From Enterobacteriaceae bacterium 89 (lineage in GTDB: Bacteria > Pseudomonadota > Gammaproteobacteria > Enterobacterales > Enterobacteriaceae): a DNA stretch of 64,000 nucleotides. The translations under genes were made by a program, and so were the position numbers. The notes under the pieces are model-generated. The model had not been told where the DNA came from. It ran no database searches and worked only from the letters and a program-made list of their open reading frames with translations. The stretch spans positions 248,001 through 312,000 of the forward strand of contig RQJH01000003.1 of assembly GCA_014156375.1 (NCBI GenBank), given 5' to 3'. How positions within the stretch are numbered: the stretch's first letter is position 1; each line of letters opens with the position of its first letter. Below are positions 14,644 through 19,567 of the stretch, one piece after another.

Positions 14644-15093
14644 TCAAAACTGACGTCTGGCAACCAGCCAGGCGCCCACCACCAGCATCACTGCGCCAAA
14701 TACCGGGCCAACCAATGCTCGCCACGGGATCCCCTGATGCCGCACGATATCCATCGCCAGGCCGCCAATGAGCTGACTGGCGACCAGCACCGCGATAGTC
14801 GTTGCTGCGCCCACGTACTGATAGCCGCTGATGCTGGCAAAAACAAAAAATGAGCCCAACAGACCGGGGATTAAGGTCCACCATTTGATGTTCGACGCCA
14901 GTTCCTGAAAGCCGCTGATGCCGTGCTTAATCAGCAGGATCGAGACAAACAGCACGATCCCTACCAGCGAGTTGAGCAGCATCGCAATCAGAATGGTGGA
15001 GGCCGACTGAGTAATCCGCACCATCAGGGTGTTCTGTACCACCAGGCCGATTCCGGCAGCAATCAAAAACGTCAGGGTCAGCGACTGATTCAT
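14644..15093 (-). CDS. ydcZ: YdcZ, DMT-superfamily inner-membrane protein
   Basis: 149 residues with five hydrophobic helices and the DUF606/EamE pattern (ends with the paired blocks LIGGLAMDIVRHQGIPWRAL and AVMLVVGAWLVAR). Members are small putative transporters of the drug/metabolite superfamily; the substrate is unknown. It overlaps mnaT by 4 nt, so the two are one operon, mnaT first. In E. coli the same pair is adjacent. If the palindromes upstream of mnaT are an operator, ydcZ shares that control. Confidence 0.9.
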   Translation of the reverse strand: MNQSLTLTFLIAAGIGLVVQNTLMVRITQSASTILIAMLLNSLVGIVLFVSILLIKHGISGFQELASNIKWWTLIPGLLGSFFVFASISGYQYVGAATTIAVLVASQLIGGLAMDIVRHQGIPWRALVGPVFGAVMLVVGAWLVARRQF

Positions 15094-15608
15094 GAACGCA
15101 GGTCCGGTTCCTGACGCTGGTCCAGCTGGAGCTGCATAAAGGTCAGATCCAGCCAGCGCCCGAATTTCGTGCCAACCTGCGGCATCTGCGCGGTAGTGAC
15201 AAACCCCAGTGAAGCGTGCAGCTTCAGCGACGCCGCATTTTGCGATTCAATACCGGCGACCATCACGTGTTTACCGATGCCTTTGGCTTCCGCAATCAGC
15301 CGGGTCAGCAGGGCACGACCCAGACCTTTCCCCTGATGCTGCGGGTGGACGTACACCGAATGCTCCACCGTGTGGCGAAATCCGTCAAAAGCGCGCCAGT
15401 CGCCGAACGAAGCGTAACCCGTGACCACGTCGTTTTCCTCGCTGACCAGCACCGGGTAACCAGCAAACTTGCGGGCTTCAAACCAGGCAATACGGTTGTC
15501 GGTATCGACGGTCTGATCGTTCCAGATAGCGGCGGTGTGCAGCACCGCGTGATTGTAGATTTCGGCGATAGCTTCACAGTCTTCTTTGCTGGCGTAACGG
15601 ATATTCAT
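15090..15608 (-). CDS. mnaT: MnaT, L-methionine sulfone/sulfoximine N-acetyltransferase
   Basis: 172 residues, nearly the same as E. coli MnaT (YncA) along its length: IAEIYNHAVLHTAAIWNDQTVD, GYASFGDWR, acetyl-CoA loop HQGKGLGRALL (R/Q-x-x-G-x-G/A signature) and the C-terminal VGTKFGRWLDLTFMQL. The enzyme acetylates methionine sulfoximine, methionine sulfone and related toxic amino-acid analogues with acetyl-CoA in the cytoplasm. It is first in the mnaT-ydcZ operon. Just before it (15626-15655) are two ACTATAGT palindromes like those at the start of the nearby XRE-cupin regulator, so local control is likely. Confidence 0.94.
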   Translation of the reverse strand: MNIRYASKEDCEAIAEIYNHAVLHTAAIWNDQTVDTDNRIAWFEARKFAGYPVLVSEENDVVTGYASFGDWRAFDGFRHTVEHSVYVHPQHQGKGLGRALLTRLIAEAKGIGKHVMVAGIESQNAASLKLHASLGFVTTAQMPQVGTKFGRWLDLTFMQLQLDQRQEPDLRS

Positions 15609-15625
15609 GGCTTGCCTCGGTGTTC

Positions 15626-15655
15626 ACTATAGTAGTACGGTATAGATACTATAGT
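15626..15655. promoter_or_regulatory. Paired palindrome, putative operator of the mnaT-ydcZ operon
   Basis: Two perfect copies of the 8-bp palindrome ACTATAGT start at 15626 and 15648, 22 bp apart (two helical turns), 18-47 bp upstream of the mnaT ATG. The same arrangement with the same period overlaps the start of the XRE-cupin gene at 16961-16990, and 9 of the 14 spacer bases also agree. Confidence 0.75.
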
Positions 15656-15676
15656 TTTATCCCTTCTGACAAGAGG

Positions 15677-16882
15677 TCAGCGCGGTTTGGCGATGACACT
15701 TTTTGCCGGAAGCTGCCAGTCCGGCGCGGTGAAAGTTTTCAGCGACTGCGGGCGATAAAGCTGGTTTTTCCACAGTCCGCTGCTTTGCTGTACGGGCGAG
15801 GGCTGCTGGCTTTGCAGGCGCGTGACCGCTGCCTGATGAATCATCATATCGGCGGATACCGGCTCCCGCAGCTGGCGCGCCGCTGTTTTGTAGGGCTTTC
15901 CGTCACCCCATTCGCAGTGAATACGCCCGAGCGGATCGCCGGGATAGCTGCGAATTTGCAGATCCACCTTCATCGCGGCAAGCTCATCCCGCAGCCAGCC
16001 ATAGCTGATATTCGACAGACCATTGCCGTTATCGGCCGCACTGTATCCGCCGCCGACGTCGGCGTGGATCCCGGCAAACAGCACCTGCACAATGCCATCG
16101 CGCGGGTCCCACCAGGTAGGCACAAAATCAATGCGCTGTTCGTCGATGGCAATCGCCTGACGGGCAAAACGAACGTTGCTGCCGAGCCGGGTATCGGCAA
16201 AGCGGTACAGATCGACCCGCTTGTCATTCATATAAGCAGGAATCCCCAGCGCGCCAACGGTTTCCCAGACGGCGATCGCTTCAATCGGCACGTTATAAAT
16301 CATCGACTTCGGGTCGATCTTCTGCTGGAAAAAGAGCGGGGCATCAAGCAGCAAATCAAGCAGTGCGGAATCTGCCACGCCGGAGGCTTTACGATAGCTG
16401 GCCCACACGGCAGAGCCCAGACGATAAGCGTTAACTTTGTTCTGCAAATCAAATTTGCTGGCATCGAGGAGGCCGCATTTGCCGATCATCCCGGCCAGCG
16501 CTCTGACGGTGTAAGCCCCACGGCTAAAACCGTTGAGATAGATCCGGTCGCCTTTCTGATAGTTACGGCAGATAAAGGTGTAACCGCGAACGATGCGTTC
16601 AATAATCCCCGCGCCAAAAACTCCACCCATGATTTTTACGTACCAGTTGCGGGAATCTCCCACGCCGTGCAGGTATTTTGCAATCTGAGTGACGTTTCCC
16701 GCAGCGTTTGTCGCCGTTTTTTCCTGCTCGTTGCCGAGCTTCAGCATACTCGGGTCATCAACACCCGTCAGATCGGTATATAAGCGGTAAACGTTGGTGA
16801 AGTCAGGCAGGCCGTCGTCATCGTCCTGCTGATTTGGGCCGTTCCAGGTGCCATCGGCGCAGAAAATGATGTTTTTGCTCAT
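15677..16882 (-). CDS. DUF2235 alpha/beta-hydrolase-like protein
   Basis: 401 residues of the DUF2235 family: N-terminal IIFCADGTWNG (residues 5-15), lipase-type elbow LNGFSRGAYTVRALAG with Ser120 in G-x-S-x-G, and later DIHADVGGGYS-type block (here GIHADVGGGYS) carrying the probable catalytic Asp. The family includes the Tle1 phospholipase effectors of type VI secretion, but this protein has no signal, no Rhs/VgrG partner and no immunity gene beside it, so a housekeeping or stress role is as likely. It lies between the mnaT operon and the divergent XRE-cupin regulator, whose operator sits 79 bp before this start codon. Confidence 0.85.
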   Translation of the reverse strand: MSKNIIFCADGTWNGPNQQDDDDGLPDFTNVYRLYTDLTGVDDPSMLKLGNEQEKTATNAAGNVTQIAKYLHGVGDSRNWYVKIMGGVFGAGIIERIVRGYTFICRNYQKGDRIYLNGFSRGAYTVRALAGMIGKCGLLDASKFDLQNKVNAYRLGSAVWASYRKASGVADSALLDLLLDAPLFFQQKIDPKSMIYNVPIEAIAVWETVGALGIPAYMNDKRVDLYRFADTRLGSNVRFARQAIAIDEQRIDFVPTWWDPRDGIVQVLFAGIHADVGGGYSAADNGNGLSNISYGWLRDELAAMKVDLQIRSYPGDPLGRIHCEWGDGKPYKTAARQLREPVSADMMIHQAAVTRLQSQQPSPVQQSSGLWKNQLYRPQSLKTFTAPDWQLPAKSVIAKPR

Positions 16883-16960
16883 GCGAGGAGTCTCTCAGGG
16901 AAGATGCTGTTAAGTCTGGTGAAATTCCGCGAGTTTGCCACCCGGAAACCGTCTTTATGC

Positions 16961-16990
16961 ACTATAGTATTACGCCATGAATACTATTGA
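16961..16990. promoter_or_regulatory. Paired palindrome overlapping the XRE-cupin start, putative auto-operator
   Basis: ACTATAGT at 16961-16968 and the diverged copy ACTATTGA at 16983-16990 are again 22 bp apart. The gene's ATG (16977) lies inside the spacer, so binding would block both transcription and the start region. Compare 15626-15655. Confidence 0.75.
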
Positions 16991-17552
16991 AGACAATCTC
17001 AATCAGCGCATCAGCGCTCGGATCAGGATCGAACGCGAATCCCGCGGCTGGTCGCTCAGCGAACTGGCGGAAAGGGCGGGCGTGTCGCGCGCGATGATCC
17101 ACAAAATCGAACGGGCAGACAGCAGCCCGACGGCGACGATGCTTGGGCGCCTTTCCGGCGCGTTTGGTATCAGCATGTCGACGCTGATCGCCCGTGCCGA
17201 AATGCAGGAAGGCAAGCTGCTGCGCCTCGAAAACCAGCCGGTCTGGCGCGATCCGCAAAGTCATTATCTTCGCCGCCATGTTTCTCCGCGCAGCGATCTG
17301 CCCATCGATTTGGTGCAGGTTGAACTGCCGCCGGGCAGCGATATTCCGATGCCTGCCTCTTCCTATGCGCTGGCGCGTCAGCTGATCTGGCTCCAGCAGG
17401 GCGAGCTGTTGTTCGTCGAAGGTGACACTCAACACCGGATGCGGGCGGGCGATTGTCTGGAGCTGGGCCCACCGAACGACTGCCGGTTTATCAATGAATC
17501 GCAGGAAAACTGCGTTTATCTGGTCGTGCGGCTCAACCATTCCGGCTCTTAA
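16977..17552 (+). CDS. XRE-family transcriptional regulator with C-terminal cupin domain
   Basis: 191 residues. Residues about 10-70 form a helix-turn-helix (ERESRGWSLSELAERAGVSR, then MIHKIERADSSPTATMLGRL). The C-terminal half (about 105-187) is a small beta-barrel cupin with WLQQGELLFVEGDTQHRMRAGDCLELGPP. Such regulators sense a small ligand through the cupin and often repress a neighbouring acetyltransferase or exporter gene. The shared palindromes point to autorepression and control of mnaT-ydcZ, perhaps also of the divergent DUF2235 gene; the inducer is unknown. The gene has almost no leader before the ATG apart from the operator. Confidence 0.88.
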   Translation: MNTIEDNLNQRISARIRIERESRGWSLSELAERAGVSRAMIHKIERADSSPTATMLGRLSGAFGISMSTLIARAEMQEGKLLRLENQPVWRDPQSHYLRRHVSPRSDLPIDLVQVELPPGSDIPMPASSYALARQLIWLQQGELLFVEGDTQHRMRAGDCLELGPPNDCRFINESQENCVYLVVRLNHSGS

Positions 17553-18690: not shown

Positions 18691-18907
18691 CGTGCAAAAA
18701 TTCTGATAGCGTCTTTAATTAACTATGCAACAACCCTTTTGTATGATTTGTACGGCCGAATTAACAACCTAATAATGAATATAGTTAGCTAATTGTTCCA
18801 TGTTATTTCCAACACCGCACGCGATACAGGATATATCCTGGGGTCGCGCAGAGTTGTTTGCTCTCAGGCCGTCACGAGAACAATGGTTATGGATACAGGA
18901 AATTAAC

Positions 18908-19567
18908 ATGCTTGATTTTGAGAAAGCACAGCGAATGAGCCTGACCACTCAGGTGGAAGTCAATTTAAAAAGCGCGCTAATTATTGGCGCACTGAAACCA
19001 GGCGCTCGTCTGGTGACGCGCGATCTGGCGGAACAGCTGGGCACCAGTATTACTCCCGTGCGGGAAGCATTGCTGCGGCTGGTGTCCTCCGGTGCGTTGC
19101 ACGCCACGCCAGCGCAGGCTTTTCTGGTGCCGGAAGTCTCGCTCCAGCGCTATAACGAGGTCAACCAGATCCGCAAAAGCCTGGAAGGCATGGCGGCAGC
19201 GGCAGCGGCAGCTCAGATGACGGCGGAAAAGCTCAACGATTTGCATCGCTTCGTGGATGCGTTTCACGAGGCGAAATCTCGGGGTGAGATGGAGCAGGCG
19301 CTGCAGGCCAACTGTCGCTTCCGCTTCCGGCTGTATGAGTATGCCAACATGCCGACTTTATTGGCGCTTATTGAACAGTTATGGGTGCGAATTGGACCGT
19401 GCTTTAATTACCTGCATCCGCTTTCCTGCGAGGTTTTTAAACAGCATCGCTATTACGAAGATTTACTTCACGCGCTGGAGAAAAAAGACGAAGCGGAAAG
19501 TTGTGCCGCCCTGTGTAGGGCTATCGATCAGGGCGCCGCTATTTTGCAGCGCCAGTATATTAATTAA
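18908..19567 (+). CDS. mcbR: McbR-like GntR-family regulator
   Basis: 219 residues of the GntR/FadR subfamily: winged helix at about 8-72 (ARLVTRDLAEQLGTSITPVREALLRL) and an FCD ligand domain with the MPTLLALIEQLWVRIGP block. Size, sequence pattern and position between curA and yncD agree with E. coli McbR (YncC), which represses mcbA and affects colanic acid and biofilm. The start at 18908 follows an AGGA ribosome site and matches the E. coli N-terminus; a longer in-frame start at 18800 has none. Its FCD half is less like E. coli than its DNA-binding half, so the targets may be shared but the ligand may differ. Confidence 0.85.
   Translation: MLDFEKAQRMSLTTQVEVNLKSALIIGALKPGARLVTRDLAEQLGTSITPVREALLRLVSSGALHATPAQAFLVPEVSLQRYNEVNQIRKSLEGMAAAAAAAQMTAEKLNDLHRFVDAFHEAKSRGEMEQALQANCRFRFRLYEYANMPTLLALIEQLWVRIGPCFNYLHPLSCEVFKQHRYYEDLLHALEKKDEAESCAALCRAIDQGAAILQRQYIN

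Follow-up and report, generated by a model that had tools for sequence, protein, structure and literature searches.

The 64-kb window (the whole stretch of DNA analysed here) carries two copies of a 30-bp paired element, one just ahead of the acetyltransferase gene mnaT and the other across the start of a gene encoding an XRE-cupin transcription regulator. Judging from sequence comparison, these elements are likely operators of the XRE-cupin protein. The explanation that we favour as a whole, with a probability of roughly 0.78, is that this protein binds the sites and represses both its own gene and mnaT-ydcZ, and that a ligand relieves this repression. The features concerned are as follows.

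14644..15093, minus strand: ydcZ, DMT-type putative inner-membrane exporter (Pfam DMT_YdcZ)
15090..15608, minus strand: mnaT (yncA/mddA), GNAT amino-acid N-acyltransferase (Pfam), corresponding to E. coli b1448
15626..15655, no strand: putative operator 1, ACTATAGT-N14-ACTATAGT, 17 bp from the mnaT start at 15608, on its 5' side
15677..16882, minus strand: gene with a DUF2235 / Tle1-like catalytic domain (Pfam PF09994), between the two sites
16961..16990, no strand: putative operator 2, ACTATAGT-N14-ACTATTGA, beginning 16 nt ahead of the XRE-cupin ATG at 16977
16977..17552, plus strand: XRE-cupin transcription regulator, 191 aa, HTH_3 and Cupin_2 (Pfam, AlphaFold model, relative 1Y9Q)
18800-19567, nearby: mcbR-like regulator gene

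The ydcZ gene overlaps the end of mnaT by 4 bp, and the two genes likely form one operon.

The paired sites and the XRE-cupin protein

The first-pass annotation had described a pair of ACTATAGT boxes 22 bp apart ahead of mnaT, and a ACTATAGT box followed by ACTATTGA over the start of the XRE-cupin gene. Both pairs are indeed present, with ACTATAGT at 15626, 15648 and 16961, and ACTATTGA at 16983. The full 30-mers of operator 1, ACTATAGTAGTACGGTATAGATACTATAGT (15626-15655), and operator 2, ACTATAGTATTACGCCATGAATACTATTGA (16961-16990), are identical at 23 of 30 positions, and a recount of the spacers returned the agreement of 9 of 14 bases noted earlier. Compared with its own reverse complement, each site is identical at 18 of 30 bases. 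The second box of operator 2 lies inside codons 2-5 of the XRE-cupin gene, and hence its conservation is partly coding.

The three copies of ACTATAGT in the window compare with 0.16 expected, a number reached in 1 of 100 dinucleotide shuffles of the window. Across the 4.72-Mb genome, the exact pattern ACTATAGT-N14-ACTATWGW occurs only at operators 1 and 2 (reversed control 0); these being its only two places, a widespread genomic element is ruled out. With mismatches allowed, rarity does not set the paired pattern apart from its reversed control in the window genome. For ACTATAGT-N14-ACTATAGT with up to two mismatches there were 2 places, again operators 1 and 2 only, versus 2 for the control, and with up to three mismatches 5 places versus 16. 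Therefore, the weight lies on the exactness of the sites, on the presence of both within one 1.4-kb stretch, and on their conservation in relatives. A family-wide search with two mismatches matched 136 of 392 genomes, many of them small genomes; this search was noisy, with a reversed control often equally high, and served as a lead only.

A recurrent two-mismatch relative of the paired site was seen at about 1501-1530 of locus L112 (genome G125) and at G061:C1:772089, G094:C140:4838 and G239:C1:3203876. This candidate for a third target, ACTATAGTAAGTTTCGA...GCACAATAGC, is probably unrelated, and the window genome has no copy of it with up to two mismatches. In L112, the gene just 3' of it looks by eye like fabB (product FabB).

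The XRE-cupin protein matches Pfam HTH_3 (E 2.5e-14) and, just below the cut-off, Cupin_2 (E 5.9e-06; 26.3 bits versus 27.2). Its AlphaFold model (pLDDT 90.8, pTM 0.64) consists of helices followed by strands, and the Foldseek matches of this model include cupin structures. The protein thus has the N-terminal XRE/HTH_3 and C-terminal cupin domains of the XRE-cupin regulators, and like them it is accompanied by a palindromic site in the spacer beside its own gene and by a conserved partner gene for an enzyme or transporter nearby, here mnaT. Its histidines (42, 96, 101, 153 and 188) form no HxH pair, the cupin metal motif, and a metal-bound ligand in the cupin pocket is therefore unlikely.

The best full-length solved relative is 1Y9Q, an HTH_3 family regulator of Vibrio cholerae. 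It is the sole one of 42 profile-matched solved sequences whose match (positions 8-178, E 2.1e-18) spans both domains, and it ranks first in Foldseek. However, identity is 19%, and with a TM-score of only 0.45-0.48 and an rmsd of 17 over the whole chain the domain arrangements of 1Y9Q and of our model are not superposable. 1Y9Q was presumably modelled with a methionine-like ligand. Another relative, SutR (YdcN) of E. coli, is similar in its DNA-binding domain of the HTH type, with 43% identity over 67 aa, whereas its sensor part gives no meaningful BLASTP match and its gene lies at a different locus. Since only the HTH aligns, and E. coli K-12 carries sutR but not the regulator of the window, we do not regard the XRE-cupin protein as a SutR orthologue.

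Conservation of the locus in relatives

Relatives of the locus were collected by a contig scan, from which the best 80 of 177 were kept as named loci. In 79 of these 80, mnaT lies upstream of the regulator gene on the opposite strand; the stretch examined of the remaining one (L031) holds no mnaT, and mnaT counts are given for 79 loci. The spacer between the two genes measures at most 60 bp in 37 loci, 61-300 bp in 37 and more than 300 bp in 5. Short spacers are mostly 37-40 bp long and occur in Citrobacter, Kosakonia, Kluyvera and others. In 36 of the 37 loci with spacers of up to 60 bp, one box is common to both divergent genes. Longer spacers are found in Enterobacter, Klebsiella, Raoultella, Lelliottia and others, where boxes with at most one mismatch stand at both ends in 39 of 42 loci. 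The other three, L051, L060 and L063, lack a good box 16 nt ahead of the regulator start.

The positions of the boxes are fixed with respect to the start codons. All 79 named loci have ACTATAGT no more than 60 nt from the mnaT start, 73 of them exactly and 6 with one mismatch, at a distance of 17-26 nt in most loci. On the regulator side, the box at -16 is an exact copy in 68 of 80 named loci and deviates by one base in 8. The regulator-side second box is often weak in relatives, and because this box is coding, the fair test of the box pair is provided by the 42 separated, non-coding sites close to mnaT. Here the best distance for the second box is 22 bp in 38 sites and 21 bp in the other 4; the sequence at +22 reads AC.ATA.T in 37. 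The exact 22-bp period claimed in the first-pass annotation thus holds in the window and in most separated sites, but gives way to 21 bp in four of them; in some distant relatives the period is, by eye, about 20-21 bp. A spacing of 21-22 bp is close to two helical turns, which would suit a pair of units bound on one face of the DNA, or else a single dimer spanning a long inverted repeat. Among 23 spacers with two sites, the longest stretches without variation lie in the two sites, with some conserved columns between them, and site bases 10-13 (TACG) are conserved too.

The more divergent relatives have short spacers, with the exception of L152, and therefore the single shared site is probably the ancestral form. 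L152 has the regulator without a box near mnaT. Two distant XRE-cupin genes (L171 and L188; 39-43% identity) lie beside MnaT-like genes with ACTATAGT in the spacer. The L188 spacer contains the inverted repeat TAGTGGAA-N4-TTCCACTA, which may represent the basic half-site of the subfamily. Among the other distant relatives, L169 has imperfect boxes only, and no ACTATAGT was found in the stretches inspected of L170, L172 and L173. In L170, a GNAT-like frame (2220-2675, by eye) lies beside the distant XRE-cupin gene. Our larger set of 124 loci holds some species twice (e.g., L033/L120 and L060/L162), one partly masked locus (L159) and the distant pairs of L169 and L171; L172 was left out of the protein alignment owing to stops in its translation.

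The DUF2235 gene, whose DUF number comes from the first-pass annotation, has a sporadic distribution. It lies between mnaT and the regulator in the window, L005 and L060, and beside the regulator in L031. Among the 80 named loci, a DUF2235 match beside the regulator was found only in L005, L031 and L060 and, as a C-terminal scrap (residues 360-399), at 4722-4841 of L003. The close relatives L004 and L008 have both sites and no DUF2235 match. By this comparison of loci, the DUF2235 gene is a patchy insertion between the two sites. Its start is 78 bp from operator 2, and control from there is possible on grounds of position. The earlier proposal of a small regulon comprising the regulator gene, mnaT-ydcZ and possibly the DUF2235 gene is thus supported by comparison for a local unit of the regulator gene and mnaT-ydcZ, while the DUF2235 gene is a candidate member by position only, being inserted patchily between sites that exist without it in L004 and L008.

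A different ORF of 458 aa, outer-membrane porin-like by eye, occupies the space between mnaT and the regulator in Klebsiella oxytoca (L019, 3459-4835), and hence the spacer may accept cargo genes repeatedly. An insert of similar size lies between the two genes in L039.

Loci without the regulator

In 384 genomes of the family, the regulator (E 1e-40 or better) was found in 94 and mnaT in 114; 93 have both and 21 have mnaT alone. The 93 of 94 denotes co-presence in the genome, with adjacency computed for part of these only, and in G195 the two genes are on different contigs. The one genome with the regulator and no mnaT match at threshold is G347, in which a distant regulator (42-43% identity) lies beside a distant GNAT gene with ACTATAGT in the spacer (L188).

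For a comparison of the boxes we chose 65 rows: 43 carry the regulator, and 22 (the 21 mnaT-only genomes and E. coli K-12) have no full one. The box ahead of mnaT is exact in 33 of the 43 rows with the regulator, the other 10 having no exact box, versus 1 of the 22 rows without. The first-pass annotation had named the pattern before mnaT in regulator-less genomes as evidence against its proposal; the outcome speaks for the proposal, as the exact box is absent from 21 of these 22, and the exception (L185) has kept a fragment of the regulator. With up to one mismatch, the box is present in 123 of 124 loci with the regulator, compared with 7 of the 23 rows that lack a complete regulator once E. 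coli EC03 is added to the 22. These seven retain a fragment (L185), a pseudogene (L180) or long relics (L145, L174, L181, L184 and L187) of the regulator gene. The other 16 have at least two mismatches in the box. We read the loss of the box in the rows lacking the regulator, from these sequences, as decay after the regulator was lost.

E. coli provides an example. Its possession of mnaT and ydcZ in the absence of the regulator, as the earlier annotation had it, is borne out by both the genome collection and the K-12 locus. Of 5426 E. coli genomes, 5364 have mnaT, and blastn of the regulator gene against the same collection gave no match. The mnaT-curA spacer of K-12 is 180 bp long, and a stretch at the expected place shares 29 of 36 nt with the beginning of the regulator gene in relatives. 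Scored on the coding part only, this relic reaches 35, a value that none of 2000 letter shuffles attained (maximum 28). Hence, E. coli appears to have lost the regulator, with a scrap of its gene left behind. Relics in L143, L144, L145, L174-L176, L179, L181-L184, L186, L187 and EC03 (L163) likewise score above all shuffles. The relic of L178 is weak, being equalled by 6 of 200 shuffles, and L146, L147, L148, L149 and L177 have no relic above shuffles. These were plain letter shuffles, 60 or 200 per row and 2000 for K-12. The locus of EC03 (L163, 2591-2814) differs from that of K-12 in having no curA, with only fragments of a GntR regulator between pqqU and mnaT.

The 65-row MnaT tree requires the presence of the regulator to have changed 10 times, at least 7 of these changes being forced by supported branches; for a tree of 48 rows the numbers are 5 and at least 2. 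The count on the larger tree, a gene tree of 169 columns, is approximate, and both trees consist of chosen rows. Because relics are present, we read the changes as mostly losses, although gains are also possible. Independent contrasts gave 7 pairs on supported branches (4.5 in the same direction, 2.5 without a difference, 0 opposite; sign test, median p 0.125), and 2 pairs on the 48-row tree. The contrasts are too few for significance, though all differing ones point one way.

Proposed control and its alternatives

The similarity of the boxes to promoter elements has to be considered. ACTATAGT includes TATAGT, one base off the -10 consensus, and the boxes, at distances of 16 nt (regulator) and mostly 17-26 nt (mnaT) from the start codons, might simply be -10 elements of the two promoters, on either strand, with the second boxes due to chance or to coding conservation. 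We think this unlikely. It would not account for the non-coding second box, which reads AC.ATA.T in 37 of 42 sites at +22, nor for the conservation of TACG at bases 10-13; where the regulator is missing, mnaT is still there but the box mostly is not; and a sigma-70 promoter scan of 15560-17060 gave no match, and thus no -35 partner. It is more improbable still that another regulator binds the sites, for instance a SutR-like protein or McbR, and that the XRE-cupin gene is a mere neighbour lost together with them. The mcbR-like gene nearby and the 43% identity of SutR to the HTH of the XRE-cupin protein would suit such a binder. Yet K-12 encodes mcbR and the site is gone there, the exact pattern stands at no further place in the genome, unlike that of a global regulator, and the site tracks the XRE gene, down to two related pairs (39-43% identity) with the same box.

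Accepting the XRE-cupin protein as the binder leaves the sign of its control. Activation of mnaT-ydcZ, or both activation and repression depending on conditions, would agree with the annotation of E. coli SutR as a dual regulator, the sign of control in our locus being deduced. We nevertheless regard it as distinctly unlikely, since the site adjoins both start codons and, in the part of PMC7901475 available, the XRE-cupin proteins of P. aeruginosa with determined regulons inhibit their targets. According to the same excerpts, these regulators repress mostly at core promoters and beside their own gene, and palindromic motifs were derived for three of them (PsdR, PauR and ErfA) and none for PA1884. 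PA1884 represses the adjacent GNAT gene PA1885 as its one local target, which resembles our XRE-cupin regulator and its neighbouring GNAT gene; it differs in being from Pseudomonas and in having a single GNAT target instead of mnaT-ydcZ, and the likeness is one of gene type. Similarly, PA1359 represses PA1360, a gene for an RhtA-like drug/metabolite transporter, and thus parallels control of an adjoining transporter of that type, but these excerpts name no acetyltransferase partner. Local repression of GNAT and transporter genes by XRE-cupin proteins is, on these portions of PMC7901475, already published in Pseudomonas.

For the locus studied here, we thus return to repression relieved by a ligand. 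In the sequences compared, the sites keep fixed positions, accompany the regulator and degenerate once it is lost; they would be bound by the XRE-cupin protein, and repression is suggested by its family and by the position of the sites. In the probable ancestral divergon, a spacer of about 37-40 bp would separate the divergent mnaT-ydcZ and regulator genes, and a single operator, adjoining both start codons and reaching into the first codons of the regulator, would serve the two. The regulator at this operator would repress its own gene and mnaT-ydcZ. A small ligand in the cupin pocket, most likely amino-acid-like and acetylatable by MnaT, would lift the repression, after which MnaT would N-acetylate the compound and YdcZ would perhaps export it. 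The lineage of the window has two copies of the putative operator, one per promoter, with the DUF2235 gene inserted between them.

The class of ligand is deduced from MnaT. MddA (YncA) of Salmonella enterica, of the same MnaT family as the protein of the window, is reported to acetylate methionine sulfoximine and methionine sulfone (Hentchel 2015, as cited in the portion of PMC12402492 available), and this activity, by analogy, suggests a compound of the methionine sulfoximine or sulfone type. Titles and abstract openings among the literature matches listed name no regulator of mnaT/yncA/mddA, in a search that had most subscription journals outside its range.

Tentatively, and at somewhat less than even odds, an acetylate-and-export unit may be controlled across the Enterobacteriaceae by a sensor-repressor dedicated to antimetabolites that resemble methionine or glutamate, and this regulator may have disappeared about ten times, E. 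coli being one of the cases. In that event, MnaT of E. coli has been studied outside its native control, and the operator has been eroding stepwise after each loss of the regulator. The loss of the regulator gene, with a relic left, is a possible reason why E. coli has mnaT without such a neighbour. For Klebsiella, Enterobacter, Citrobacter and their relatives, our results offer a concrete candidate operator and partner for a regulator of which the literature matches listed hold no description. Repeated loss followed by gradual operator decay would constitute a natural series for the escape of a gene from its regulator, and the ligand, once identified, would show what MnaT and YdcZ defend the cell against.
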